The notes under the pieces are model-generated. The model was not told the origin of the DNA. It did no database searches and was given only the letters and a program-made list of their open reading frames with translations. A DNA stretch of 32,888 nucleotides from Candidatus Dadabacteria bacterium (GTDB lineage Bacteria; Desulfobacterota_D; UBA1144; Nemesobacterales; JADFKM01), in NCBI GenBank assembly GCA_022564935.1, contig JADFKM010000017.1:1-32888 (forward strand), read 5' to 3'. The position numbers and the translations under genes were made by a program. Positions 2,060 to 32,888 of this stretch are shown here, one piece after another. Positions within the stretch are counted from its first letter, which is position 1, and each line of letters starts with the position of its first letter.

Positions 2060-5000
2060 ATGGCAACACTACAGAATCTAACATTAGCAATTTCTTTCAC
2101 CGTCACGGGTGCAAAAGAAGCTGTCAAAGACATAAAGACCGTTAGAAACGAAGTCCAAAAGAACAACGACAATATTGACAAAACAGTAAAGAAAACATCA
2201 AAGCTTAAAAAGACAATAGAAGGGATTAAAATAGGGGTAAATGCAGTAGATATAATCATAGACAATTCTGTTAGGCGTGCAAAAGAACTTGAGGAGCTAT
2301 CGAAGCAGTCAAACATCCCACAAGAGGATATAAAACGCCTAGAAAAAAATCTAAAAGATGCTAAAGAGCTTGTTGAGATCGACAAAACATTAAAGGAGAG
2401 GAAGCAAAGAAGCAGGGAGTTAATACCAGAGGCTTTTCAGCAGATTACTGGAGGCGCTCTTAATGATGCAATAGATAAATTAGGAGAGAGCACTCTTCGT
2501 TTTTCCGCCAAAATTAAGAATCTGCAAATTAGTGTAGAAGATTTCGGAATCGCCCTTCTTGAAGGTCTAATAGACATAGACAAGTCTTTTGAGAGTTCAG
2601 GCCGCAGTATTTTTAACATCTTTAATCCAGCTGTCTCTCAAGAAGAGCTGGACGTTTTAGCGGCTTTCCACGGACGTGTTGAAGAAATAACCAGCGCCCT
2701 GAGTGAAAACGATTTTGCCCGACAGAGCGCGCTTGAGGATTCGGTTAAGTTGCGGGATCTTCAACTCGAATTACTAGGAAAAGAAGAGCAGCTTAATGCT
2801 ATTAGAAAGTTAGGCGGAGGCACGCCGGAAGTAATCGATATATTCAAATCGGAAATTTCAGAACTTGAGCAGAATATAACGAAATTAAAGACCGGTATTA
2901 ATGACACTGTACAGGCGGCCAAGACGTTCGACGCTCAAAATAAAGAATCTTCCGAAGGGGTGGATAAGCTCAAACAGGGCGTTGAAGGGTTAAATAAAGT
3001 AGTAGACAAAGCTTCTCAAAATATAACGCCTATTGATACCGAGGGCTTAGACAACGCACGTGAAAAAGTAGATAATTTGAAGGAAAGTGTTAACGGCGGC
3101 GCCGGGCTTATCGTGGCGGTAAAAGGACTTAATAAGGAAATAATAAACGTTGACGGCCCAGCGGTTAGAGAGGCTTTTAGTTCTTTAGAGGATGAGTTTT
3201 TAGATGTGCAAGATACTGTAAAAGAAACCGCATCGACCATACCGGAGTCGTTCGAAGAAGGATTATCCAAAGCGCAAAGGCTCTTCGAGGATTTCGGAAG
3301 GATAATAGGCTCCACGCTTGAGGACACCTTCGTCAGCATCTTCGAGGGCAGCTTCAAGGACATCGGCAAGATGTGGAAGGACGCGCTCAGTAACATGCTC
3401 AGCCTCTTCCACCGGTTCGTAGCACAGATACTAACCCAGAAGATATTTGTGAGCGTCGGAGCGATATTTGGGGGTGCGGGAGCGACGGCGGGGCAAGGTG
3501 GGAGTGGCGATGGTCTGTTCGGTGGAGGTATCCCCGGCACGGGCTTTATAGGGAATCTGCTCGGCAGACTTCCCGGTGCGGGTTTTGTAGGAAGTGGGTT
3601 AGGTACGGGAATTAATATTGGTGGCACGATAATACCTGCTACGGAGACTGTTCCGTTTGCGACTGCGGTAGGCGGCTTCACCATACCCCTTACCGCTCTA
3701 GCTGGGGCTGCGGCAAGTATCCTGGGGTTTGTCTCAGGTAACATCATTCAGGGCATAGGCGGGGCGCTGGCTACGGGGGTGGCCTTTATCCCCGGTATTG
3801 GCCCGCTGCTCTCTATAGGAACTCTTATTCTCACGAAAATTATAGGTGCAATATTCGGCCTCGGTAAAAAGAAGTTTGTGGTACAAATAGAGGGCACTAT
3901 AAGCGATATAATTGAAGGGGGTGGATTGACCAGGGCTAAGCGGGCCTCGGCCTTTGAGGAGCCGCTACGGGCAGCCGTACAGCAGACACTCAGCAATATA
4001 TTCGATACACTAACATTATTCTCGGATCGGGCGGTAGAGAACTTCCTCAGTACAGAAATCCGGCTACGCCGAAAAACTAAATCCGGCGATGTAGGCCAGA
4101 AATTACAAGAGTTTATCGAAGGCGGTTTCCTCCCGAACTTGTTCGACCAGATACAAGAGAGTTTTGTAATAGCGTTCGAGGACTTCGGCGTCGACCAACC
4201 CCTCGCCGGGCAGTTCGTGGAGGGCTTCTCTGATACACTCCGGGCGATAGAGGATCAGTTCCGGGGAACGGCGGAGCTAGGGGAAAGGCTAAGTGAGGCG
4301 TTCAATTTATTTCTCACGCAGATGAACCTGCTGGCTATTACACTTGACCTTATGCCCGAACGTCTTAAGCACGTGGTGGTCGGTCTTACGAATATTTCCG
4401 ATAGCCTAGAGGAAGCCGCTTTACAGGTAGCTAGCTTCGCAGCGCTCGTGCAACTCGTGGAGCCTGACCTATTCGACCCCATCACGGCGTCTATACAGAG
4501 GCTTAAAGCGCAGGCTGAGGAGCTTGGATTCGAGGGCGGCATACCATCGCTTACGGAGTTTACCGCAAAGATAAACGAGATGATTGACGATATTGCGGCT
4601 CAGTTCACGGAACTGCCGGAAGAGTTTTTTATAGTGGCGAGAGAGTTGGCGGAAGGTATCGATGAGATGCAGAAAAGTATGAAAATCGATCCTGAGCTTA
4701 TACAGCAGTTCGTTGATTTCAGGAACGCCTTAATCCAGCTTCGTCTCGCCCTCGTGGACAGCATAAGCGGTCTCGTATCGTTTATTAACACGCTCAACAC
4801 TCAGATAGTGGCGGGGGGCGGTGCGGCGGTGGATACTACGGGCGCGGTCAACGCCACCATTGACAACCTAATGGAGCTTATTGCCTCCGGCACGCTTTCC
4901 ATTGAAGAACGTCAGCAGGTACTACAGCAGCTTGCGGGTCTCGCGAATCAATTAGCGGCTGCTGAGATTCAGGCCGGACAGGCGGCAATCCAGAGTCAGA

Positions 5001-8105: not shown

Positions 8106-8570
8106 ATGCCAACAGCGTGGATAATAAGTCCAGTAATTGAGACTGTTGCGCCTCTGGGTTCCCCTTCGGGGACGCGAAGGTTTAGAGTTCCAAAAGTAAG
8201 GTTAATAGAAGACCCTGGCAGGCCATTGATAGATGGTGCAAGGTCTCACTATGATTATTCCTCGGTAATCACAGAACAGCAGACAGATACTAATGGAGAC
8301 TGGTGCTTGAGCCTTATTAGAGGTATAGACCTCTCAGTATTAGAATCCGACCCTGATATTACAATTATTCACATAAAGGGTGAGGGACTTAACACAAAGC
8401 TCCAAGACCTTCCGGCTGCAAAGAGAGCAAAGATAAGGGCAGCCGTGCAGTCCAAGCGAGGCAACATTGCAGACCTTAGAGATGACATGCAAATATGGGA
8501 GTGGATTGTGGAGGTTGGAAAATTGATAAAACCTGAGTTCAAAGACACAAGGGGTATGTGGTTTAAGTAA
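8106..8570 (+). CDS. Hypothetical tail-region protein containing a palindromic repeat
   Basis: A 154-aa protein, SD GAGGGAGTG before the ATG. No family recognised. A repeat (8156-8176) is translated near residues 17-24 as PLGSPSGT. The central part (DWCLSLIRGIDLSVLESDPD) and the helical C-terminus look like a folded globular domain. The gene is AT-rich by eye and overlaps the next start as TAATG, so it is translated with the large tail hub gene and may assist its assembly. Confidence 0.6.
   Translation: MPTAWIISPVIETVAPLGSPSGTRRFRVPKVRLIEDPGRPLIDGARSHYDYSSVITEQQTDTNGDWCLSLIRGIDLSVLESDPDITIIHIKGEGLNTKLQDLPAAKRAKIRAAVQSKRGNIADLRDDMQIWEWIVEVGKLIKPEFKDTRGMWFK
8156..8176 (+). repeat. Palindromic repeat, in the 8106 gene
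   Basis: GGGTTCCCCTTCGGGGACGCG with stem TCCCC / GGGGA and loop TTC. It is read in frame without disrupting the ORF. Confidence 0.7.
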
Positions 8571-11500
8571 TGCCTACAGTCAAAGTAGAAGATACATTCA
8601 CAGAAGCAAGCGATATTGTTCTAAGTGCGCATACTCCAAGCCCTACAGGGGATGGCTGGACTAGGGAGGCTATTACTGGAACTGTAGATTTGGAGGTTAG
8701 AGGGGCTTCGGATAATGTGGCTACGGATGCAGATGAAAATGATGATTATGTAGTTTACTCAGTTCAGCCCAATCCAACTGTAGCAGAATATGATGTTGAA
8801 GTTAAGAATGTAAATTTAACAGGGCTAAATAATGACTCTTATCAGCTACTTGCTAGATTTACCGATACGAGTAACACATATGGTTTATCTCTTAGGCATG
8901 TTTTTGGAAGTGGCAACGATGATAATGAAATTTTTAAAATAGTTTCTGGCACAGTAACCTCAATAGCTTCATTAACTGAGGAGAGAATTCCCAATGAGAT
9001 TATAAAATTTGAGGTTAGAGACGCAACAAAGAAGATGTTTGTGGATGGAGTAGAGAAATTAAGTACAACTGACAATGCGATAACATCTGCTGGAAAATGG
9101 GGTGTGGCAGCAGGCAATTTATTCGAGAGCGCTAATAATAAACAAAATTCTTGTGCTTGGGATGATTTTAAATGCACAGAGCAGGGTGCTATTGAACACC
9201 TGCTCGCTATGGTGATAAATGCCGTCACAACCACCACGGGCGCTATCACAGCGGCGGTGCCCCTCGCTGCGGTAATGAACGCAGTCACGACCACAACCGG
9301 GGCGGCAAAGGCGTACCGATTACTCAGGACTGTAATGAACGCCGTCACCACAACGGCTGGTGCAATCTCGCTTGTGGGAATCGCCCTCACTATGGTGATA
9401 AACGCCGTCACGACAACGGCGGGTAAAATCGGCGGCACTTTTACTTTCAAGATGGCAATAAGTGCCGTTACCACTACGGCGGGGAAAATCGGGGGCACCT
9501 TCGTATTCAAAGCTGTCATGAACGCCGTTACCTCCACGACTGGGGTAATCACGGTTGGCTTAATTCTAAAGGCTTTAATGCAAGCCGTTTTTCAAACGAC
9601 GGGAATCCTGACCCCGAAAGCCTTTAATTATAAATGGAGCCTTATAGACACGGATGCGGAGACCACGAGTGACATAAAGAAATTGTACGTGGAGATTGAT
9701 TCAAGTACTATGCCGGGAGCGTTCCCTACCGGAGCATTTTTCGAGCGGCGTATTATGGAGCTTCCCACATTCGAGAAAACTCAAACTGACCCGTTGTTCG
9801 GAATCTCAGGATTCGGCTCGACTTCCCTCGTTGTAAGTAACGCCGATAAGCTCTTCAACGTAGTGGATTTGCAAGGTGCCTTCGCAAAAGTATGGGTCGT
9901 TCACGAAAACGTAACCGAGGAGTTCGCCGGGGTGATAACTGCCAAGAAACTCCATTGGAAAACGGTAATTCAGATTGAGGATATGGAGGCTAAAGTATTC
10001 GAGGGGACTCTACCCCACCGCACGGTGAACGATACAACGTTCCCAAACGCCGAGGGACTGGGCAAGCGCGTGCCTATAATATTCGGCAGGGCTAAGAAAG
10101 TCCCGCTTATCAATATCAACGTGGACGACACGAACCGTGACTACGACTTTCTCATAGGCGAAGGTACGGGACTTTCGAGCGGGAACTTCAACACGGTGTA
10201 TACGGCCTACCGCGAGGACTCCGCTCTCGATGAAATCACGGGTACGGCTCAGACTGGTTCGGCGACCACCATAACCTTAGAGAACGCAGACCGCAGGCCG
10301 GACGGCTGGTACAAGTGGTTCTGGGCGGAGATAACGGGCGGTACGGGAAGTGGGCAGATAAGGCACATTACCGATTACATCAGCAGCACTAATATAGCTA
10401 CGGTGGATTCGGCCTGGGGAACTAACCCCGACGCCACCAGCGTGTACCGCCTGCGCGAGTGGCGGTTCTACGACGGCTCGCAGGGCAGCCCGCACGCCGG
10501 TTACGCCTTCCTGCGTTTTAAGAAACGGCTTGGCGAGCGCACCCGATTCGACAACCTGTTCGCCGACGTTAGGGGACTCACGACTGAGGAAAATGTTGTA
10601 CGGGCGATTGAATCAATATTGACGAACACGACCTGGGGGTTAGGGCTTATCATAGACACCGCTTCGTTCGACACAGCAGCCGCCCTCGCCGCCATAACCG
10701 CTATGAAGTGCGAAGGGGCGATCCTCACTGAAAGCGGCATATTCGACATACTCAACGAGCTGCTCATGTTTAGGGGTATGACACTGAGCCGCAGCACGGA
10801 CATCGGCATAACGGTGGACTCTACTAAAACATCCGCAGTGAACTTCGGTTTGGGCGACGGGCTGTATGAGAACATTATAAGCATAGACGGCCTCGAGGAC
10901 GCACCCCTCACGGAGCTGGCAAAGGACGTAGAGACGCACTTCCAAACGGACTATAAGAGCGGCGATATGAATCAGAAGATAACCCGCACTTCCCATGCCA
11001 AGGGCACGGACGTAATATTGTCCCTGCCGTTCGTGCACATTCATGAAACCGCAGACAGGATAGCCGATTATCAGCGCAAGCGTCTACAGAGCTTCGCTAA
11101 GACACTGCGCATCACCGTCGGCCTGGACGCCGAGCCTGTGAACAAAGGCGACTCGGTTACCGTCGATATACCGAGCCTGGCTATTCAGGGCGATTGGGAA
11201 GTAATAGAGGCGTCACGCGGGCTTGCGAGCTACAGCCTCACGCTCATGGAGTACATAGCCAATACTTATACATACGAGGCTACGGGCGGGCTGCCCTCAG
11301 ACCCCGGCAATATACCCGCCGACTTCTCGCTCACTAACCCCGACCCGGTGAGCAACCTTGCGGCCACAATGGCATTCTCGAACGATGAGTCCACCGCAGC
11401 GCTCACGTGGGACTTGCCCGCAACGAACGCAAAAGAGGGCGTGGTGTTCAAGAAACTCAACTCCGCACCGACAAGCTCATGGGAGGAGGTAGGCGTGGGT

Positions 11501-12325
11501 ATAAGCAGCTTCACGGTAGATTTGATTGCGGGACTTGTCTATGACTTCATGGTGCTTACTCGCAATGAACCCAGCCTCTTTAGCGGCGCATTCGACCCAG
11601 GGAGCATCGTTGTGAATAAGCTCGCCCTGGGCGATACATCGGCGCCAGCTACGCCTGGCACACCTACGCTTGAGATAAAATTTAGAACATTTACAGCGAA
11701 AGTCGTTGGATATACGAAGCCTGCGGATTTTAAAACGTTTGAATATCAGCGCACCACAAGCGGGGGTTCCGATGTAGATGATCCAATATTTGACGAATCG
11801 GAAGAAACCTCCTGGACAGAGGACGGAACAACAACCGTATCGAGAAAGGTCAAAGTGCGTGCGATAGATAATTCAGGGAATCCAAGCGCATTCTCCTCCT
11901 TATCCTCAACTAAGACAACGGCGGGCTTAGTTCAAGATGATATAATCCAGGGCGAGGTCACGGTATCGAACAGCGCTGTAATTGCTTCTATAAACCCCCT
12001 ACCTGCCGTTGGAAGCAACTTAATCACCGTCACCATGTTGACTAGAGGGTTTCCGGTAGATATTGAGTTCTCAATGAACGCAAGGCGTTATTCTCCCGGT
12101 GCGTCCGGTATAGTGTTTATGAGTTTGATAAGAGATACTACTACTATACAGCAAGAGTTCGTTAACCACTTTCTCGTTCAGGGTGAGGTGCAGCAAATAG
12201 CCGCTGTTTTTAGAGATACGGGTGCTAATTTCAATTTTCATACTTGGAAGGTCATTATGGGTGGCGGTAATGCCAATACTGCCGGTGGTGAAATAATTAT
12301 CAAGGTTACAGAGAAGAGGAGGTAA
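8570..12325 (+). CDS. Tail hub / fibre protein with LamG-like, tandem-repeat and fibronectin type III regions
   Basis: A 1251-aa protein, second largest of the genome. Residues 1-205 resemble a concanavalin/LamG beta sandwich (MFVDGVEKLSTTDN, then SCAWDDFKC). Residues about 214-355 are seven 20-21-residue repeats. Residues about 360-910 look like the central tail hub that closes the tube, with beta-rich segments such as FEGTLPHRTVNDTTFPNA. Two fibronectin type III-like domains follow (about 925-1015 and 1020-1120). A C-terminal beta domain of about 100 residues completes it. The order tape measure, distal tail, hub/fibre is normal for siphophages. Base use changes from AT-rich to GC-rich near 9.19 kb, so the N-terminal domain was probably exchanged. 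Confidence 0.75.
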   Translation: MPTVKVEDTFTEASDIVLSAHTPSPTGDGWTREAITGTVDLEVRGASDNVATDADENDDYVVYSVQPNPTVAEYDVEVKNVNLTGLNNDSYQLLARFTDTSNTYGLSLRHVFGSGNDDNEIFKIVSGTVTSIASLTEERIPNEIIKFEVRDATKKMFVDGVEKLSTTDNAITSAGKWGVAAGNLFESANNKQNSCAWDDFKCTEQGAIEHLLAMVINAVTTTTGAITAAVPLAAVMNAVTTTTGAAKAYRLLRTVMNAVTTTAGAISLVGIALTMVINAVTTTAGKIGGTFTFKMAISAVTTTAGKIGGTFVFKAVMNAVTSTTGVITVGLILKALMQAVFQTTGILTPKAFNYKWSLIDTDAETTSDIKKLYVEIDSSTMPGAFPTGAFFERRIMELPTFEKTQTDPLFGISGFGSTSLVVSNADKLFNVVDLQGAFAKVWVVHENVTEEFAGVITAKKLHWKTVIQIEDMEAKVFEGTLPHRTVNDTTFPNAEGLGKRVPIIFGRAKKVPLININVDDTNRDYDFLIGEGTGLSSGNFNTVYTAYREDSALDEITGTAQTGSATTITLENADRRPDGWYKWFWAEITGGTGSGQIRHITDYISSTNIATVDSAWGTNPDATSVYRLREWRFYDGSQGSPHAGYAFLRFKKRLGERTRFDNLFADVRGLTTEENVVRAIESILTNTTWGLGLIIDTASFDTAAALAAITAMKCEGAILTESGIFDILNELLMFRGMTLSRSTDIGITVDSTKTSAVNFGLGDGLYENIISIDGLEDAPLTELAKDVETHFQTDYKSGDMNQKITRTSHAKGTDVILSLPFVHIHETADRIADYQRKRLQSFAKTLRITVGLDAEPVNKGDSVTVDIPSLAIQGDWEVIEASRGLASYSLTLMEYIANTYTYEATGGLPSDPGNIPADFSLTNPDPVSNLAATMAFSNDESTAALTWDLPATNAKEGVVFKKLNSAPTSSWEEVGVGISSFTVDLIAGLVYDFMVLTRNEPSLFSGAFDPGSIVVNKLALGDTSAPATPGTPTLEIKFRTFTAKVVGYTKPADFKTFEYQRTTSGGSDVDDPIFDESEETSWTEDGTTTVSRKVKVRAIDNSGNPSAFSSLSSTKTTAGLVQDDIIQGEVTVSNSAVIASINPLPAVGSNLITVTMLTRGFPVDIEFSMNARRYSPGASGIVFMSLIRDTTTIQQEFVNHFLVQGEVQQIAAVFRDTGANFNFHTWKVIMGGGNANTAGGEIIIKVTEKRR
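9209..9634 (+). repeat. Seven tandem 20-21-codon repeats in the tail hub gene
   Basis: Each unit begins with a hydrophobic residue or Met and carries the core NAVTTTTG or a variant, for example MVINAVTTTTGAITA, AVMNAVTTTTGAAKA, TVMNAVTTTAGAISL and MAISAVTTTAGKIGG. The last unit (ALMQAVFQTTGIL) is the most diverged. The nucleotide repeats are imperfect, so the array has diversified but could still change copy number by slippage or recombination. Confidence 0.85.
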
Positions 12326-12921: not shown

Positions 12922-12946
12922 TTTGCATGCCGGGAGATTAAATGAT

Positions 12947-14278
12947 ATGAAAAAGCCGCTCAAGCCACCTTACGAAACAATCTCAAAAATTATTACGGAG
13001 AATCCCGACCGCTGGCTTGAGATCGTGAATTTCAAGGGAGACTTGAAGGATACAAAATATCTCCACTGGGATCAGATGTATCATATGACCCCTCCCAAGG
13101 GGCTTTCCCGCGAAGAGTGGTGGCTCGCAATTATACACAATCGAGATAACTCCGCAAAAGATCTTCCTATGTGGGATAAGGAGCGGCGGCGGCTTCTTCG
13201 CTGGGTTATGACCAACCCAATCCCTGAGCGTCTTCATCAGATTGACTTCAACGCTGGGAGCGGGGCGGGGCTTCCCTCAGCGGGGCTGAGCGACGAGACG
13301 AGAGACATATACTACGTCAGCTCCCTAATAGAAGAAGCGTTCACATCGAGCCGGCTCGAAGGGGCGTTGACAACGCGCAGGGTGGCAAAGGATCTCATTC
13401 GCACCGGGAGGAAGCCCGCAGACAAAGCCGAACGAATGGTTCTTAACAACTACCTGACGATGAAGGAAATCAGGGATTTTAAGGACGAGCCGCTCACGAA
13501 GGAGCTTGTGTTTAAGATACACTCGCTGATAACCCAAGGCACGCTGGACGACCCCACGGATGCGGGCCGCCTCAGAACCGCCGCAGACGACATCGCCGTC
13601 GTGGACGAAAAGGGACAGTTGCTCCATACACCTCCCGACCCCAACGAGCTACCGGAAAGGATGGAGGCGATGTGCCGCTTCGCCAACGACAAGAGTACTA
13701 AAAAATTCATCCACCCCGTCATCCGCTCCATCATCCTCCACTTCTGGCTTGCGTACGACCACCCCTTCGTTGATGGCAACGGACGGACGGCACGAACCCT
13801 CTTCTACTGGTCGATGCTTCGCCACGGGTACGAGCTTTTCGAATTCATCTCCATCTCCTCGATCATCCTCAAAGGGCCAAGCAAGTACCTCCGCGCGTTC
13901 CTTTACACCGAGAGTGACGAGAACGACCTGACGTATTTCATCCTCTACCACCTGGACGTGATACGCCGCGCCGTCGATGCGCTCAACGAGTACATTCGGC
14001 GCAAAACGCAGGAGCTGCGCGCGCTCGAGCAGAGGCTGCGGGGCCTGGCAGCTCTCAACCACCGCCAGCGCGCCCTCATCAACCACGCGCTCCACCACCC
14101 CGGCGAGCGCTACACGATCTACGGCCACCGCATGAGCCACGACACCGCCTACGAGACGGCACGCTCTGACCTGCTCCACCTGGAGCGCGAGGGGCTTTTC
14201 ACCGCCGAGAAGATCGGCAAACGGTGGTACTACACGCCCGCCGAAAACTTCGAGCGCAGGCTCGGCGCGTCCCCCTAG
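12947..14278 (+). CDS. Fic family enzyme (probable AMP transferase) with C-terminal winged helix
   Basis: I chose ATG 12947, with SD GGGAG 10 nt upstream, over an upstream TTG at 12923; this gives 443 aa. The Fic catalytic motif HPFVDGNGRTAR is complete at residues 272-283 (His272 as general base). The self-inhibitory motif [S/T]xxxE[G/N] is present as SSRLEG at 134-139, N-terminal to the catalytic core, the class II arrangement. The N-terminus (about 1-100) matches the lead-in region of such Fic proteins, and the end (about 380-440) looks like a winged helix. The family transfers AMP, or occasionally another nucleotide group, to a target hydroxyl. Its elaborate operator region suggests tight control. 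Toxin, defence or host-takeover roles are all possible. Confidence 0.85.
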   Translation: MKKPLKPPYETISKIITENPDRWLEIVNFKGDLKDTKYLHWDQMYHMTPPKGLSREEWWLAIIHNRDNSAKDLPMWDKERRRLLRWVMTNPIPERLHQIDFNAGSGAGLPSAGLSDETRDIYYVSSLIEEAFTSSRLEGALTTRRVAKDLIRTGRKPADKAERMVLNNYLTMKEIRDFKDEPLTKELVFKIHSLITQGTLDDPTDAGRLRTAADDIAVVDEKGQLLHTPPDPNELPERMEAMCRFANDKSTKKFIHPVIRSIILHFWLAYDHPFVDGNGRTARTLFYWSMLRHGYELFEFISISSIILKGPSKYLRAFLYTESDENDLTYFILYHLDVIRRAVDALNEYIRRKTQELRALEQRLRGLAALNHRQRALINHALHHPGERYTIYGHRMSHDTAYETARSDLLHLEREGLFTAEKIGKRWYYTPAENFERRLGASP

Positions 14279-15128: not shown

Positions 15129-16226
15129 TTGGATATTGAGCTTATCGCAACGGATGAGTTCTACAAGAGTATCGACCCGAATTCGGGCCTCATAGAAGGT
15201 CTCATGGAGTCCATCTTAAAGAACCGTCAGGTACAGCCCGTCACCATAGCACCGAACCCCCGGGGCCCAGAGCCGTACAGGATAGTAGACGGCAGGAAGC
15301 GGCTGTTCGTACACAAGCAGTTAGCAAAAGACAACAAGAGATTCCGCAACATCCAGGCGCACATCGAGAAGATGTACGAGGACGAGACGCGCCTTGAGCT
15401 TGCGCGCATAGACACGATGCTCTTAAGAGAGGAGCTGCACCCGGTTGCATACGGGAAACTACTTGCGCAAAAAAAGCAAATATACGAAACGCTTTACCCC
15501 GATTCCGCCAAGACAGGCAAAAAAGTTACTGACAAAATGGCGAAGACTTTCATTAAAAGCCATGAGGAGACCACAGGGATGAACGAAAGGACGGCCTACA
15601 GATTTCACAGCGCCGCTACATCCATTCCCGACGACGTGGCGAAGAATGTCATCAAGCTGAACCTGCCGATGTCGGACTGCGAAAAGCTCGCTAAACTGCC
15701 GCCTGTGGTGCAAAAGAAATATGTAAACATCGAGACGGCGCAGGAAATCAGGGAGCAGGTAGATAGGGACATGGCCGAGATCCTCGAGACGCAGAGAGCG
15801 GCGCAGGGCAAATTAAGCGTGGACATGGAGAAGCTCCTCGCAGAGCCTACGAGCGAGGACAGGACGGTGCTCTCCTCAGCCCGGGGCGTCGTGGAGCGCA
15901 TAGCGGTATCGAACCCGAAGTTCATCGAAGAGCGGTGGATGTTCATCGACTGCAGGATAGCCGTCTCTCCCAAGGGCGACCTAGTGCTCGTCAAGTCGCA
16001 CAAATACAGCGACCCTTTGACCGACGGCGAGAGGAAGGCCATGGGCACGATAGACAGGAGACTCCATGAGGGCGATTTCACGTACCACGGCCTGTTCGCC
16101 GTAGCCCAGATTAACGATCAGCCCGACGAGAGGGTCATGGTCAACGAGAACAAGGGCAGGCACGTGAGAAAGGACAAGGTGAGTCTCTGGGGATACGCAA
16201 ACAGCTACTTCGGCTCCATGGAATGA
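15129..16226 (+). CDS. parB: ParB-like partition protein
   Basis: A 365-aa protein starting with TTG 15129, placed 6 nt after a strong SD (GGAGGAG). The N-terminal ParB nuclease-like domain is clear: GLIEGLMESILKNRQVQPV, then YRIVDGRKRLFVH near residues 50-62. A helix-turn-helix region follows (about 135-185, TFIKSHEETTGMNERTAYRF). The C-terminal about 150 residues are of a less common type and may hold dimerisation or centromere recognition. The order parB before parA with ATGA overlap differs from the usual parA-parB order. It would load at a centromere and move with ParA to keep the episome in both daughter cells. Confidence 0.85.
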   Translation: MDIELIATDEFYKSIDPNSGLIEGLMESILKNRQVQPVTIAPNPRGPEPYRIVDGRKRLFVHKQLAKDNKRFRNIQAHIEKMYEDETRLELARIDTMLLREELHPVAYGKLLAQKKQIYETLYPDSAKTGKKVTDKMAKTFIKSHEETTGMNERTAYRFHSAATSIPDDVAKNVIKLNLPMSDCEKLAKLPPVVQKKYVNIETAQEIREQVDRDMAEILETQRAAQGKLSVDMEKLLAEPTSEDRTVLSSARGVVERIAVSNPKFIEERWMFIDCRIAVSPKGDLVLVKSHKYSDPLTDGERKAMGTIDRRLHEGDFTYHGLFAVAQINDQPDERVMVNENKGRHVRKDKVSLWGYANSYFGSME

Positions 16227-16936
16227 GGGTCATATCGGTTGCCAATCAAAAGGGCGGGGTGGGAAAGACCACGCTGTCTTTCCACCTTGGCTGCTATCTC
16301 AACAAGAGAAACAAAACCGTGCTTTTAGTGGACCTCGACTCTCAGGGGAACCTGACGAAGATCACCGGAGTTAAGAGAGCCGACTGCCTCATATATGACG
16401 TTTTCAGCGATTACCCAGTGCTCAAGACCGAGCCGATAAGGGACGGCCTCTCGATATGCACGTCCGACTACCGCTTCTCAAAGCTGATGTTCAACATGAA
16501 GACGGAACATCAAGGAGCCCTCAAAAAGGCCCTTGCCGGCAAGAGCGCCGACTACGCCGTCGTCGACTGCCCCTCGGGGTTAAACTCCATCACGGCCTCG
16601 GCCTACATCGCCTCCGATTTCCTGCTTATACCGACCCTGCCCTCGGACTTAAGCGTGGACGGCATTGAGCAGTTCCTCGAGATAGTCGGCTCGCTCAAGA
16701 CCCTTAAGGTGCTCGGCATCGTAGTGAACAGGTACATAAAAAAAAGGCATTCAAGCAATAGCATCAAGGCGCTACTAGGAGCCGGCTACAAGATAATCAA
16801 GCCCATTATACCGGAGCGCACCGCCGTCGAGGAGGCCGAGAAACACAACCTGCCGATCTGGGACTACGCCCCAGGCACCGACATCGCCGGTATGTACGAG
16901 CTGCTGATGCGCAATATCATTAAGTCCTTGCATTGA
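16223..16936 (+). CDS. parA: ParA-family partition ATPase
   Basis: A 237-aa protein with the deviant Walker A motif KGGVGKTT at residues 10-17, signature lysine included. The A' motif is in LLVDLDSQGNLT (about 35-46), and the Walker B segment is YAVVDCPSG. It lacks the long N-terminal HTH of type Ia ParA, so it resembles the short ParA (type Ib) and cannot itself be the DNA-binding autorepressor. Its start overlaps the parB stop as ATGA. ParA binds the nucleoid with ATP, and ParB triggers hydrolysis. Together the pair argue for stable maintenance as a low-copy plasmid. Confidence 0.92.
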   Translation: MRVISVANQKGGVGKTTLSFHLGCYLNKRNKTVLLVDLDSQGNLTKITGVKRADCLIYDVFSDYPVLKTEPIRDGLSICTSDYRFSKLMFNMKTEHQGALKKALAGKSADYAVVDCPSGLNSITASAYIASDFLLIPTLPSDLSVDGIEQFLEIVGSLKTLKVLGIVVNRYIKKRHSSNSIKALLGAGYKIIKPIIPERTAVEEAEKHNLPIWDYAPGTDIAGMYELLMRNIIKSLH

Positions 16937-17464: not shown

Positions 17465-17731
17465 ATGGCGCGAGGTAAGAATGTTTCCAACCCGATAGAG
17501 CATTTTCGAGAAGGGGGATTGTCCAATAAATCCAACGTCATAGAAAGATTAACAACTAAACGTGAATGCGGCGGACAACTGCTTCCTTTAATGTTTATAT
17601 GCGACGAAGAAACTGACTCAATTCACGGATGCTCACAGGGGGGATGCGTGACTGCGCACGGCGAGTGGTTTTCTTTGAACAATGAAGACGCCGAGCATCT
17701 AAAAACTGTAGAAGAATGTAACGACACATGA
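17465..17731 (+). CDS. Small Cys-containing protein upstream of the replication initiator
   Basis: An 88-aa protein. Its ATG lies 6 bp after the -10 hexamer with no SD, so a leaderless mRNA is predicted. Six cysteines occur at irregular spacing (CGG, IC, GCSQGGC, EC), with His residues between, perhaps a metal site, but no known finger is recognised. The stop overlaps the next start as ATGA, so it is coupled to the replication initiator and may regulate it. Function unknown. Confidence 0.55.
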   Translation: MARGKNVSNPIEHFREGGLSNKSNVIERLTTKRECGGQLLPLMFICDEETDSIHGCSQGGCVTAHGEWFSLNNEDAEHLKTVEECNDT

Positions 17732-18714
17732 AACACTACCCCTATATAAACGCTCTGGCCGACGACAAAGACATTCTCCTGTACAGGAAAAAACTGCGTT
17801 ATCTTTGCGGTACCGTCTCCGCTACAATCCTTTTCAGTCAGCTGCTTTATTGGTTCAAGAAGAACGACTTCGACCCGTTTTACAAATTTATAACGCCCGA
17901 TGTGAAAAACTCTCTGTACAAAGAGGGCGAGAGCTGGGTCGAAGAATTAGGGTTTTCTTATAAAGAGTTTGCAAACGCATTTGATCATATCGGAGCCAGG
18001 CACAAAAGCAAGACCCTCTACGAAGCCGCCGAAAACGAGTTCGTCAATAAAAAAGGAAAAGAGATGATGTTCTCTTTGTATCAAGAAAAAACAACCGGCA
18101 AAACATGGTTCAATATAAATCTTGAACTCGTCGAGAATAAGCTTGTAACAATATACGAAGGGGGAGACACGGGTTTTACCAAAGGGAAAACACGGGTTTT
18201 ACCATCAGTGAAACACGTGAACGACAAAAGCGCAAACACAGGTTTTACAAAAGGTAAAACAGATTATAAGGAACAGTATAATACTACAGAAATAAGGGGG
18301 GAACAGACTACGTTCCCTAAAGGGAAAGTAGAGAAAAAATTGAATGTTAATTCTTTAGAGAACAACCAGGCGTGGAAAAAACTACGCAGCGGCGTTTATA
18401 GAAAGCGTCTCCTGGAGTTCTACGACAACCGTGTTGGAGACATGGAGCTTCTTACCCTAGCCGCCGAACTCGTAGAGCGGGCATTAAAGTCCATCTTCTC
18501 GAATAACGCCGCATACCTGAGGGACGAGCATGAGTTCCTGCCGGACGATTTTGAACTCGCCGACAACCCTTCGTTTTTGAGTGCAATAGTCGATGACATG
18601 CCGATCGGAGAGCTGCGCGTGATGTCTAAAGGGAAGCTGAAGGGTCAGCTTGTAAAGGAAGTAGCCGATGCGGCGGCGGCGCATTTAATAAAATATTTAG
18701 ACGCTAGAAAGTAA
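17728..18714 (+). CDS. Replication initiator with winged-helix domain and internal iterons
   Basis: A 328-aa protein. Residues about 28-135 match the layout of phage winged-helix replication proteins: TILFSQLLYWFKKN, then WVEELGFSYKEFANAFDHIG, then TWFNINLELV. The linker (about 148-215) is low-complexity and repeated (TGFTKGKT twice, NTTEIRGE). The C-terminal half (about 215-328) is helical. In phages such as lambda the origin lies inside the initiator gene, and the linker here is encoded by iteron-like repeats. No helicase or polymerase gene is present, so it would recruit host replication proteins. It could be a different type of initiator, but a replication role is well supported by domain and context. 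Confidence 0.7.
   Translation: MKHYPYINALADDKDILLYRKKLRYLCGTVSATILFSQLLYWFKKNDFDPFYKFITPDVKNSLYKEGESWVEELGFSYKEFANAFDHIGARHKSKTLYEAAENEFVNKKGKEMMFSLYQEKTTGKTWFNINLELVENKLVTIYEGGDTGFTKGKTRVLPSVKHVNDKSANTGFTKGKTDYKEQYNTTEIRGEQTTFPKGKVEKKLNVNSLENNQAWKKLRSGVYRKRLLEFYDNRVGDMELLTLAAELVERALKSIFSNNAAYLRDEHEFLPDDFELADNPSFLSAIVDDMPIGELRVMSKGKLKGQLVKEVADAAAAHLIKYLDARK
18167..18251 (+). repeat. Iteron array, candidate replication origin
   Basis: ACACGGGTTTTACCA at 18167 and again at 18190, a degenerate unit ACACGTGAACGACAA at 18213, and ACACAGGTTTTACAA at 18237: spacings 23, 23 and 24. The first two copies are read in different frames (TGFT and RVLP). Each GTTTTAC half is followed by a partial inverse (GGAAAAC, GTGAAAC, GTAAAAC), so every unit can also form a small hairpin. 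Confidence 0.65.
18308..18331. repeat. 24-bp hairpin downstream of the iterons
   Basis: CTAC, TTCCCT, AA, AGGGAA, GTAG with one mismatch: 10 paired positions inside the initiator gene. Could be a single-strand origin or helicase-loading site, or belong to the iteron region. Confidence 0.5.
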
Positions 18715-18735
18715 GACCTTCGGTTCTATAAAACG

Positions 18736-18758
18736 ATCCGGGGTTGCAAAAACCGGAT
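18736..18758. promoter_or_regulatory. Inverted repeat ATCCGG-N11-CCGGAT over the -35
   Basis: Perfect six-base arms at 18736-18741 and 18753-18758 straddle the -35 hexamer at 18744. A likely autoregulatory operator of the ribbon-helix-helix gene that follows. Confidence 0.55.
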
Positions 18759-18772
18759 TCAATTGATATAAT
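18744..18772 (+). promoter_or_regulatory. Promoter of the RHH gene
   Basis: TTGCAA at 18744-18749, 17-bp spacer, TATAAT at 18767-18772. The ATG at 18779 coincides with the expected start, so the mRNA should be leaderless. Hexamers and spacing are identical to the hicAB promoter at 24096. Confidence 0.75.
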
Positions 18773-18778
18773 GACACT

Positions 18779-18994
18779 ATGAGGCAGGAATATCCGACCA
18801 AGACAAAAAAACACGTCACGACGCTAAGAATGACCAAGGACGAGTTTAGACAGGTCCTGGAAATTGCCCGGCAGAGAAACCTGAGCATGAACAAGATGGT
18901 AATGGAAATTCTCAGGAAAGAACTAAAGCTCAAACCCGACCCGCTAAAACCGAAAGGGGGGCAGTATAAAGAGGGGCCGAAAAGAAAGAGATGA
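18779..18994 (+). CDS. Ribbon-helix-helix DNA-binding protein
   Basis: A 71-aa protein. The segment KKHVTTLRMTKDEFRQVLEI, then RNLSMNKMVMEILRKEL, has the Arc/MetJ/CopG form: a beta strand (VTTLRM) and two helices joined by a short turn. The C-terminal tail is Lys/Pro-rich and disordered. No SD precedes the ATG; the promoter leaves no leader. The operator over its own -35 suggests autorepression. In plasmids such proteins control copy number or partition, consistent with its place between replication initiator and terminase genes. Confidence 0.8.
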   Translation: MRQEYPTKTKKHVTTLRMTKDEFRQVLEIARQRNLSMNKMVMEILRKELKLKPDPLKPKGGQYKEGPKRKR

Positions 18995-19051
18995 GGGGGG
19001 CAGCATGGGGGGGCAACATGGAGGAGCAACAAGGTGGACAACAGAGGCGGC

Positions 19052-19074
19052 GGGTAGGGAGGGGGTGAGCGGGG
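19052..19074 (+). other. G-quadruplex motif
   Basis: GGG-TA-GGG-A-GGGGG-TGAGC-GGGG fits the G3N1-7 pattern with very short loops. It lies between the replication initiator region and the terminase operon. Confidence 0.55.
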
Positions 19075-19281
19075 ACGGCGGACAGGGGGGACAAGAAGCG
19101 AGGCTGGGTGGCAGTTGTGAAGAGCCGCCGTAAAGAGAGTGGCGAGGCGCAGGGTTAAACGAGGGAGAAAAAACACAGGGAAAGGCAAGGCGAAACGCAC
19201 CGTTTAGCCGTAGAGGGTGTTGGGATGAAAGCACATGATCGGGCGAAAGGAAAACCGGTTCAAAGCGGCGATATTCATTCA

Positions 19282-19299
19282 TGATAAAGCGCATTATCA
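19282..19299. promoter_or_regulatory. Palindrome TGATAA-AGCGCA-TTATCA
   Basis: Perfect six-base arms, with GCGC at the centre. Resembles an operator for a dimeric repressor; it lies about 115 bp upstream of the 19412 gene. Confidence 0.4.
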
Positions 19300-19373
19300 C
19301 GTATAAAAAAGGGACAGAACGATACACGGCTTCAATGAATAACTCTGTGGTCTTTACAACAACAAAAGAGTGT

Positions 19374-24135: not shown

Positions 24136-24405
24136 TTGTTGGAGCGGCAGCTTGTGAGCAGGGTAGAAAAACTGATAAAGAGACTGCTTGACAGGCCGAA
24201 GGATTTTAAGTGGAGGGAGCTTGTGATGTTGTTGAAGGCGCTTGGGTATGAGGAGGCGAAAAGAGGGAAGACAGGAGGGTCGCGGAGACGCTTCGTTCAC
24301 GAAAGAACCGCCCCAATCACACTGCACGAGCCGCACGACGGTGTTTTGAGGAGGTATCAGATCGACCTGGTAATAGAAAATTTAGAGAGAGGCGGGATGA
24401 TATGA
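24136..24405 (+). CDS. hicA: HicA-family toxin
   Basis: Up to 89 aa. TTG 24136, TTG 24139 and GTG 24154 are possible starts; none has a strong SD, and GTG 24154 gives a size nearer the family. The core is typical: WRELVMLLKALGYEEAKRGK, then GGSRRRFVHERTAPITLHEP, then RYQIDLVIENLERGG. The classical GSH motif with its catalytic histidine is GSR here, as in a subset of HicA annotations, so activity should not be taken for granted. HicA proteins are double-stranded-RNA-binding mRNA interferases. The stop overlaps hicB as ATGA. Confidence 0.8.
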   Translation: MLERQLVSRVEKLIKRLLDRPKDFKWRELVMLLKALGYEEAKRGKTGGSRRRFVHERTAPITLHEPHDGVLRRYQIDLVIENLERGGMI

Positions 24406-24743
24406 GCGACATGATGAGGTACAAGGGCTACGACGGCTCAGTGAAATACAGCGACGAGGACGGCTTGTTTTACGGCAAGCTGGAGTTCATAAAGGCGCTC
24501 ATCACCTACGAAGGCACGGACGTAAAATCACTGCGCGACGACTTCCACGAGGCCGTGGACGACTACCTCGATTTGTGTGAGCAGGAAGGGATAGAGCCGG
24601 AGAAGCCGTTTAAGGGCAGCTTCAATGTCCGGCCCGGAAGCGGCCTCCACCGCCGGGTCGTCATGTACGCCAGGGAGAAGGGCAAGACCCTCAACCAGGT
24701 CGTCAAGGACGCCCTCGAAAAATACCTCGAAGCCGAGGGGTAG
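24402..24743 (+). CDS. hicB: HicB-family antitoxin
   Basis: A 113-aa protein. The partial RNase H-like fold (YKGYDGSVKYSDEDGLFYGK, then SLRDDFHEAVDDYLDLCEQE, about 7-68) is followed by an RHH DNA-binding segment (SFNVRPGSGLHRRVVMYARE, then TLNQVVKDALEKYL). It neutralises HicA and represses the operon through the palindrome at 24082-24099. In a phage-plasmid it may provide addiction or exclusion of other phages. The operon interrupts the head gene order between gpG and protease. Confidence 0.9.
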   Translation: MSDMMRYKGYDGSVKYSDEDGLFYGKLEFIKALITYEGTDVKSLRDDFHEAVDDYLDLCEQEGIEPEKPFKGSFNVRPGSGLHRRVVMYAREKGKTLNQVVKDALEKYLEAEG

Positions 24744-25049: not shown

Positions 25050-25133
25050 GGCGGAACATATGCGGAAAGTGGAACCAGAACGGAAGGCGGAACACATGCA
25101 GAAGGTGGAACACATGCGGAAGGTGGAACCATG
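25050..25133 (+). repeat. 18-bp tandem repeat ending in the protease start codon
   Basis: Four full units and one partial: GGCGGAACATATGCGGAA (25050), AGTGGAACCAGAACGGAA (25068), GGCGGAACACATGCAGAA (25086), GGTGGAACACATGCGGAA (25104), GGTGGAACCATG (25122). The last unit supplies the SD-like bases and ATG of the protease gene. Most units contain a similar GGAA...CATG arrangement. Confidence 0.9.
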
Positions 25134-26207
25134 TGGATAGAAATATTTAAGACCGGAACACACACCGACTCGGCGGGTCTCTCAAAGACGTGGACTAACG
25201 CCGACCTCGACGGGATCGCCGGAAAGTACGACCCGGCGGTTCACGAGGCACCCGTGGTGATAGGGCACCCCAAGGACAACAAGCCCGCCTACGGCTGGGT
25301 TGAGGCACTCAAGCGGAGCGGCAGCGTCTTGATGGCGAAGGTCAAAAACCTCGCGCCTGAGCTGATGGATGCCCTCAAGAGCGGACTCTACAAGAAGCGC
25401 TCCATATCCCTTTACCCCGACGACGCGCTGCGGCATGTGGGCTTCCTTGGAGCCGTTCCCCCTGCGGTAAAGGGGCTTGCCGACGTGCAGTTCGCAGCCG
25501 ACGGGGAGTTCAGGGAGTGGGAATGGGTGGTCGAGAACAAGGAGCGTAAGATAAACAACTCCGGAGGTGAAAACCATATGGACGACAACGCTCGGGTTAC
25601 CCCGCATGAGGGAAATGACGACCGGCAGAAAATAACGGAGCTTGAGGCCGGTCTTAAAGCTGCGCTGGAGCGTATAGCGGAGCTTGAGGCGAGACTCGAA
25701 GAGGCCCAATCCCCTGATAACGAGTCTCGTGAGGAAGAGGAAACGGCTCTTGAAAACAGCCCGGATAATGTACGGGCGTTCGAAGAGATCACAGAAATCC
25801 GAGCCAGGGCTGAGCGCGCGGAGAAAAGGGCCGCCGAGCTGGAGGCGAGACTGAACAAGCGCGACTTCATGATATACCTCGACGACGCCGGAAGGCGGTA
25901 CATGCTTTCCCAAGATTTAAGGGCGGGGCTTGTAGACATGCACGAGGCTTTGAGCTCCCGCGACTTCTCCGAGTCGGAGAGCGACGCGGGCGAATTTATA
26001 AAACGCATCGTCGAGCGGATGCCCAAGCTCGCCGATTTCAAGGAGCTGGCGACGAAGGAGCGGGCAAGCGACGCATCCACAGAGTTCGAAGAGAAGCTTA
26101 AGCGCAGGACAAGGGAGATTGCGAAGGACAGGGGGCTCAACGAGTACGCCTCCTACAAAGAGGCGACTAAGGAGCTTTCCAAAGAGAACCCGGATTTTAT
26201 GAAATAA
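25131..26207 (+). CDS. Prohead protease and scaffold (Mu gpI-like)
   Basis: A 358-aa protein. Residues 1-130 are the Mu-type protease: TWTNADLDGIAGKYDPAVHE, APVVIGHPKDNKPAYGWVEA, then SGLYKKRSISLYPD and GFLGAVPPAVKGL. Conserved His and Ser in the GHP and RSISLYP stations are candidates for catalysis. The C-terminal part (about 160-358) is Glu-rich coiled coil (ITELEAGLKAALERIAELEA) and acts as scaffold. It shapes the prohead and is then degraded. Expression may be unusual because of the tandem repeat before the start. Confidence 0.88.
   Translation: MWIEIFKTGTHTDSAGLSKTWTNADLDGIAGKYDPAVHEAPVVIGHPKDNKPAYGWVEALKRSGSVLMAKVKNLAPELMDALKSGLYKKRSISLYPDDALRHVGFLGAVPPAVKGLADVQFAADGEFREWEWVVENKERKINNSGGENHMDDNARVTPHEGNDDRQKITELEAGLKAALERIAELEARLEEAQSPDNESREEEETALENSPDNVRAFEEITEIRARAERAEKRAAELEARLNKRDFMIYLDDAGRRYMLSQDLRAGLVDMHEALSSRDFSESESDAGEFIKRIVERMPKLADFKELATKERASDASTEFEEKLKRRTREIAKDRGLNEYASYKEATKELSKENPDFMK
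25578..26207 (+). CDS. Nested scaffold protein (Mu gpZ-like internal start)
   Basis: Inside the protease gene, an SD GGAGGTG at 25563-25569 lies 8 nt before an in-frame ATG at 25578 (Met150 of the long protein). This would give a separate 209-aa scaffold identical to the C-terminal part, as in Mu I/Z and lambda C/Nu3. The shift from the protease domain to low-complexity linker happens at this point, as expected for independent expression. Confidence 0.7.
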   Translation: MDDNARVTPHEGNDDRQKITELEAGLKAALERIAELEARLEEAQSPDNESREEEETALENSPDNVRAFEEITEIRARAERAEKRAAELEARLNKRDFMIYLDDAGRRYMLSQDLRAGLVDMHEALSSRDFSESESDAGEFIKRIVERMPKLADFKELATKERASDASTEFEEKLKRRTREIAKDRGLNEYASYKEATKELSKENPDFMK

Positions 26208-32335: not shown

Positions 32336-32797
32336 ATGGCTACGCTTAAGGGTCTTACGAAGAACGTGGGCGAATATGTATGGATAACTCCGTACGCGGA
32401 CATAAAAGAGTTCCCGACGTACAGGGACGAGGGGGGGGCCGAGGTCGTATTATCGGAGCAGTGGCGGGAGATAGGCTTCAGGGTGAAGTACCCGTCTATG
32501 AAGATAATCAACAACCTGTCCATCCGCAGCTTCAGGAGCTATGCGGTGAGGGGTACGAGCGAGATGCGCAAGGAGTTCGATCCGGAGCGCCTGGCCGACT
32601 TCATAGCCAAGGAGATAATCAAGGAGTGGGAGAATGTGGAGGGCGAAGGTGGCAGCTCCGCCCCGTATGACCCCGCGTTCATGAAAGCGGAGTTCATGAA
32701 ATCGCAGTTCCTTCTCAACGAGTTCATCACCCATTACCAAAGCGTCGGCGAGAGCGCGGCGTCGGATGCGGAGGTTGCGTCTGAGGATTTTTTGTAA
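32336..32797 (+). CDS. Tail assembly chaperone (gpG-like)
   Basis: A 153-aa protein. I chose ATG 32336, with SD GGAGG 5 nt upstream, over an ATG at 32282 inside the palindrome. The sequence (TKNVGEYVWITPYADIKEFP, then EQWREIGFRVKYPSMKIINN, ADFIAKEIIKEWENVEGEGG, FLLNEFITHYQSVGESAASD) has the usual form of siphophage/Mu-like chaperones: an N-terminal beta part and helical end. It ends at TAA 32795-32797 directly after T_TTT_TTG. The -1 product continues at 33-428 of this window. Confidence 0.8.
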   Translation: MATLKGLTKNVGEYVWITPYADIKEFPTYRDEGGAEVVLSEQWREIGFRVKYPSMKIINNLSIRSFRSYAVRGTSEMRKEFDPERLADFIAKEIIKEWENVEGEGGSSAPYDPAFMKAEFMKSQFLLNEFITHYQSVGESAASDAEVASEDFL

Positions 32798-32888
32798 GGT
32801 TCGGGCGCTTTGCAAAGGCACACCTCACGCCGGGCCGCACCCCTATACATAAGGTATACGAGAGCATCGAGAAGCTCGAAGGCAAGCT
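32762..32888. repeat. Terminal direct repeat, right copy
   Basis: Exact second copy of bases 1-127. It contains the last codons of the tail assembly chaperone, its frameshift heptamer, and the beginning of the frameshifted extension. Joining the copies gives a 32761-bp circle. Confidence 0.95.

Follow-up and report, generated by a model that had tools for sequence, protein, structure and literature searches.

A segment of the Candidatus Dadabacteria contig JADFKM010000017.1 is, with a probability of roughly 0.87 on the evidence of its sequence, the origin from which a circular phage-plasmid of ~32.8 kb replicates, embedded in the gene for its own initiator in the manner of lambda ori within gene O. 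The window, by which is meant the whole stretch of 32,888 nt that was analysed and which makes up an entire contig, contains a single array of 23-bp iterons in this gene, and the origin reading is based on the DnaB and DnaC-like genes that adjoin relatives of the initiator, on an unstable segment directly behind the array, and on a GC-skew minimum within the same gene. The features discussed below are collected in Table 1.

Table 1. Coordinates of the initiator gene, its candidate origin elements and the partition genes in the window.
Feature	Position	Strand	Sequence or basis
ParB-like partition protein gene	15129..16226	+	phrog_4715, E 1e-16
ParA partition ATPase gene	16223..16936	+	phrog_164, E 4e-49; PF13614
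rep, replication initiator, 328 aa	17728..18714	+	phrog_9773 'replication initiation O-like', E 3e-6
Predicted N-terminal winged-helix DNA-binding domain, aa 1-144	17728..18159	+	AlphaFold2 model, structural neighbours
Iteron unit 1	18154..18176	+	TACGAAGGGGGAGACACGGGTTT; codon phase 0
Iteron unit 2	18177..18199	+	TACCAAAGGGAAAACACGGGTTT; codon phase 2
Iteron unit 3, degenerate	18200..18222	+	TACCATCAGTGAAACACGTGAAC; codon phase 1
Iteron unit 4	18223..18245	+	GACAAAAGCGCAAACACAGGTTT; codon phase 0
Iteron unit 5, partly degenerate	18246..18268	+	TACAAAAGGTAAAACAGATTATA; codon phase 2
Putative DNA unwinding element	18255..18296		AAACAGATTATAAGGAACAGTATAATACTACAGAAATAAG; window version of the ACAGAGA/TAC word
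C-terminal region, aa 177-262	18256..18513	+	common to same-order initiators
24-nt imperfect hairpin	18308..18331		CTACGTTCCCTAAAGGGAAAGTAG; CTACgTTCCC-TAAA-GGGAAaGTAG, one mismatch

Comparison of the contig ends shows that the first and last 127 bases are exactly identical (1-127 = 32762-32888), and the replicon is therefore most simply circular, with a length of ~32,761 bp. Genes for a terminase, a Mu-type portal, a head protease and a major head protein are present in the window, and the occurrence of ParA and ParB-like genes alongside these head and terminase genes identifies the replicon as a phage-plasmid. The ORFs of the window that were scanned, a subset, include no integrase, and Rfam and tRNA scans returned nothing useful. 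The non-coding DNA behind the initiator gene is G-rich and strongly skewed at 18995-19031 (within 18930-19230), with 13-bp GGGGGGCAACATG repeats. Elsewhere, an 18-bp unit, GGAACACATGCGGAAGGT, is repeated 4.8 times at 25053-25137, immediately before the head protease gene and running into its start; a HicB-family ORF (24402-24743) lies within the head gene module; a Fic/DOC-domain protein of 451 aa is encoded at 12923-14278, upstream of the parAB genes; and a 60-bp tandem repeat (9398-9532) sits inside an ORF of 1251 aa (8570-12325) that has no PHROG or Pfam match.

The product of the initiator gene matches no Pfam or NCBIfam family above threshold. An AlphaFold2 model based on the family alignment (pLDDT 90.6) places an HTH at residues 70-88 and a beta wing at 115-130, among solved structures winged-helix DNA-binding proteins come closest, with Z in the middle range (best 2d1h, Z 7.4, 3.7 Å over 101 residues), and the top BFVD matches include viral HTH and replication proteins. 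Foldseek against the PDB gave no match at E<=0.001 and a profile search of PDB sequences gave chance matches only; the predicted winged-helix assignment rests on the middling Z of a second structural aligner and on the secondary-structure pattern. Initiators from genomes of the same order resemble it in the C-terminus but differ in their N-terminal HTH domain and in their iterons, which are palindromic and 24 bp long (GGTGACAAAAATGTCACC), and no homologue of the window's N-terminal domain was found in same-order and same-phylum genomes. A binding domain and its sites, judged from these sequences, may have been exchanged together onto other C-termini. The in-gene GGTGACAAAAATGTCACC iterons of same-order genomes lie at 1390-1500 in locus L002, at 1411-1505 in L004, and on the minus strand of L005.

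The original prediction was that iterons at 23-bp spacing lie inside the initiator gene and are conserved across reading frames, and this is borne out by five 23-bp units in register at 18154-18268 that together occupy all three codon phases. Along the array, identity reaches 0.61 at a lag of 23 and 0.62 at a lag of 46, against a background of ~0.25, and TRF independently detects the array at 18167-18261 (period 23, 4.1 copies). The array had been placed from 18167 onwards, where the repeats are real, but it extends ~13 bp further upstream and its third unit is degenerate. Exact copies of ACACGGGTTTTACC occur at 18167 and 18190, 23 bp apart, with a further copy at two mismatches 46 bp on, at 18236, and the 20-mer AAACACGGGTTTTACCAAAG has three sites at up to three mismatches in the whole 32.8-kb window, where none is expected, all of them inside the array, so that only one such array is present. 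Units 1 and 2 are identical at 19 of 23 positions though read in different frames, and the same DNA is indeed translated as TGFT in one copy and as RVLP in the next. When each codon was redrawn among its synonyms using the window's own codon usage, 35.9 +/- 4.0 lag-23 matches were obtained against the 57 of 92 observed, a value reached in 0 of 5000 draws, which argues that the DNA of the array is constrained beyond the protein.

The units are imperfect inverted repeats. A quasi-palindrome, GTTTTACC-AAA-GGGAAAAC, spans units 1 and 2 at 18173-18191, an inverted repeat, GTTTTAC-aaaag-GTAAAAC, spans units 4 and 5 at 18242-18260, and GTTTTACCAAAGGGAAAAC and GTTTTACAAAAGGTAAAAC are self-complementary at 14 of 19 positions, the central base being unable to pair. 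The predicted 24-bp hairpin at 18308 is also present, with a DNA fold of -6.5 kcal/mol (z -4.5). Directly behind the array, the least stable 40-mer of the initiator gene begins at 18255, in a segment with an AT content of 75% compared with 56% over the gene, and this AT-rich flank is interpreted as a candidate DNA unwinding element. It contains a partial copy, ATACTACAGAAATAA at 18281, of a word found behind the arrays of relatives, with two mismatches to HTACWACAGAGAHTA, which is insignificant by itself.

The detrended cumulative GC-skew has its minimum at 18,572, within the initiator gene, with no switch elsewhere that would speak against the predicted origin, and the purine-skew minimum lies at 17,919. 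The GC-skew minimum is unmoved when the G-rich spacer at 18715-19370 is masked, and the range of the skew is greater than in all 300 block shuffles. Because nearly all genes lie on one strand, the minimum is supportive rather than decisive.

The first 144 residues of the initiator define a family that is present on four plasmids, on viral contigs and on 29 genome contigs, the last including Nostoc, Brasilonema, Chitinophagaceae, Chlorobiota, Thermoanaerobacterium and Oxalobacter, as well as Gallionella, Geobacteraceae, Acidobacteria, Cetobacterium, Peregrinibacteria and others. Searching the viral contigs with the single protein gave no close relatives, which were reached by alignment only, and tblastn against annotated phages gave no direct relatives. 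Among 49 members scanned, phrog_9773 matches 26 and a DnaD-like loader profile matches 14, and no Pfam or NCBIfam family describes them. The 85 family genes fall into 56 clusters at 70%, and 54 diverse relatives entered an array test in which each gene's strongest repeat period in the range 12-40 was scored against codon shuffles. At p<0.02, 35 of the 54 clusters pass, with a best period of 23 in 18 and of 24 in 12; at z>=3, an array is found in 33 of the 54 family genes, compared with 3 of the 63 ORFs that served as controls at these loci; 18 of the family arrays have a period of 23 and 10 a period of 24. The other 21 relatives, some of them short or fragmentary, show no array at the sensitivity of the test. 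Arrays with periods of 21 to 24 start at residues 97 to 182, behind the DNA-binding domain. The homologue from Nostoc linckia (L028, ~3439-3600) carries near-perfect 24-bp iterons (63/69 matches) followed by the inverted repeat CCTTTGGGCAGTTACGTAACTGCCCAAAGG, and is a possible culturable test case.

Iteron units vary in sequence between clusters and encode unrelated peptides, yet 17 of the 18 period-23 arrays exceed all 500 synonymous recodings. Iterons are more alike where the DNA-binding domains are closer in identity (Mantel r 0.38, p 0.0005). A half-site, TTTAC/GTAAA, recurs in 21 of 32 arrays against 7.6 expected. Cognate binding sites would be expected to show just such tracking, a common half-site and a recoding excess. 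The original prediction, that the DNA is under selection as a site for binding, is supported by the recoding of the window's array, by that of the relatives' arrays and by the Mantel statistic, all of which point to probable binding. Among 11 downstream ORFs scanned, the gene that follows the initiator encodes DnaB in four relatives (L027, L060, L009 and L014), a DnaC-like loader in two (L013 and L069) and a DnaA C-terminal domain in one (L089), so that a helicase or loader gene is adjacent in six of 11.

The common word behind the arrays of relatives is ACAGAGA-HTAC-WACAGAG, and in most of them a run such as TATATAGATACAGAGACTACTACAGAGATTACTACAGAGAATA lies directly behind the array. Downstream words are present in 14 of 32 genes where about one is expected, and number 106 in the 126 nt behind 32 arrays compared with 21.4 +/- 4.6 under synonymous recoding, a count that leans upward because the words were picked from those same genes. 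The family-averaged AT content behind the arrays rises weakly, to 0.62-0.63 from ~0.59, and the specific word is the better signal. All viral contigs were also searched for the 21-mer ACWACAGAGAHTACWACAGAG with no protein as a guide, and at least 120 stretches were found, whereas fewer than one is expected by a composition-based estimate that assumes a collection of ~60 Gb. Among the matches listed, the 21-mer lies inside an ORF in 80 of 80 loci, and these reduce to 36 non-redundant ORFs of initiator-like build, with an N-terminal domain, a repeat-bearing linker and a C-terminal domain. In all 36 of these listed ORFs the word is located behind the initiator-type linker, and the best upstream period is 23 in 29 and 22-24 in 35. 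The word occupies a single codon phase in 36 of 36 of the ORFs among the matches listed, so that shared descent or a preference for the peptide TETT adds to the constraint on the DNA. DnaA-trios were considered as an identity for the downstream word; their polarity would fit, but the match extends to only a quarter or so of the triplets, and this identity is not claimed.

In the mechanism that we propose, the N-terminal winged-helix domain would bind the 23-bp quasi-palindromic iterons, probably as dimers, and the resulting nucleoprotein complex would melt the adjoining AT-rich segment at 18255-18296. The C-terminal part would then recruit the replicative helicase of the host, because the window yielded no gene for a helicase or a loader, and the gene after the initiator encodes a ribbon-helix-helix protein; if the host helicase is recruited directly, an adjacent loader or helicase gene is not essential. 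The direction of replication is a further part of the model that we infer. The iterons would occupy DNA coding for a flexible linker between the two domains, in which many readings are tolerated, and the spacing of the repeats could therefore follow the DNA helix (23 bp) and not the codon (24 bp). A wider proposal, to which we give even odds, is that initiators of phages and plasmids, forming one large superfamily, share an origin code consisting of the domain, cognate in-gene iterons whose helix-set 23-bp pitch overrides the frame, and a conserved and repeated 12-nt unwinding word, ACAGAGA-HTAC-W. As the binding sites are contiguous with the binding domain, the two could be transferred together, as a single cassette, to one helicase-recruiting C-terminus or another.

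In iteron plasmids, additional iterons serve to control copy number, and the array could instead be a control locus, bound by the initiator for autorepression or as incompatibility iterons that count copies, like P1 incA, without being the start site. The parAB genes fit this explanation, because an element that carries them is probably a low-copy plasmid prophage. A single array in 32.8 kb, however, leaves no separate origin array for a control locus to act on, and the unstable segment and family unwinding word directly behind the array, together with the skew minimum within the same gene, make a role confined to control improbable.

Two further explanations carry still less weight. Some plasmid centromeres are iteron arrays, and the ParA and ParB-like genes end ~1.2 kb upstream, such that the array might be the parS partition site of this pair; but relatives of the same layout adjoin DnaB, DnaC-like or DnaA-domain genes, the position of the array is tied to the initiator gene, and the iterons track the initiator's own DNA-binding domain, all of which renders a partition site very improbable. 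Least probable, and scarcely credible, is that the repeats merely reflect a protein repeat, TGFTKGKT, with the likeness of the DNA being secondary: units 1 and 4 do share a frame and both read TGFTKGKT, but the near-identity of units 1 and 2 in different frames, the failure of synonymous recoding ever to attain the observed identity, and the retention by relatives of period 23, which is no multiple of three, with unrelated peptides are contrary to it. An origin within the initiator gene is therefore the preferred reading.

For most uncultured phages and phage-plasmids we know of no identified origin, whereas the one described here is legible from sequence alone. A 23-bp array behind the domain, together with the ACAGAGA/TAC word, predicts origins in many replicons in which the gene bears the label 'hypothetical protein'. 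The spacing, which changes frame from unit to unit, shows cleanly and in a natural sequence how a DNA constraint can override the codon frame, and the downstream word raises the question of whether its contact is the initiator, the helicase loader or the helicase. Three things appear to be undescribed in the open-access literature: the initiator family that spans many phyla, the 23-bp pitch that it keeps in spite of the codon frame, and the unwinding word that its members share, which would mark a larger superfamily.

Among known systems, the name of phrog_9773 is itself inferred, and no iterons, spacing or in-gene origin are attached to that profile. No Pfam match links the window protein to the Rep_3/RepE initiators of iteron plasmids, and the RepE54 chain aligns to the initiator model with Z 4.7 over 88 residues (rmsd 3.8). 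TP901-1 ORF13 and Tuc2009 Rep2009 bind repeats in their own genes that serve as ori (PMC8965321), and SPP1 oriL, inside gene 38, combines repeats with an AT-rich unwinding element (PMC6316719). Like the proposed origin of the window, these are direct-repeat origins inside an initiator gene, theirs being experimentally supported, but the TP901-1 and Tuc2009 genes are most strongly periodic at 15 bp, which keeps the frame, whereas the period of the window's array is 23 bp and changes it. Vibrio phage X29, with an 'O' protein annotated as HTH_36-type, and Acinetobacter phage TRS1 share the layout of the window: their 'O' genes contain arrays that change frame at 22-23 bp, and ACAGAGA/TAC words come behind them. 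The gene after each of these 'O' genes encodes a DnaC-like loader or DnaB, and neither was found in the window.

In lambda, the ori is established to lie inside gene O, and its iterons are imperfect inverted repeats (PMC7466680). Homology between the window's initiator and lambda O was not detected (hhalign probability 0.4%), and the initiator may work like O without being established as its homologue. The iterons differ in sequence, the window has five units at a regular 23 bp, and no P-like loader gene lies next door, unlike in lambda, where four iterons in the middle of gene O are spaced at 20, 24 and 23 bp in codon phases 0, 2, 2 and 1. Since the lambda iterons also change frame, conservation of iterons across frames is not new as such, and no statement of it for lambda was found in the open-access literature. 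The predicted lambda-like layout and the difference in iteron sequence both stand, whereas the supposed difference in unit hairpins falls away, as the iterons of both systems are imperfect inverted repeats. With iterons of this form in mid-gene, changing codon phases and an A-rich flank downstream, lambda ori/O is the closest known arrangement, and the likeness is closer than had originally been claimed.
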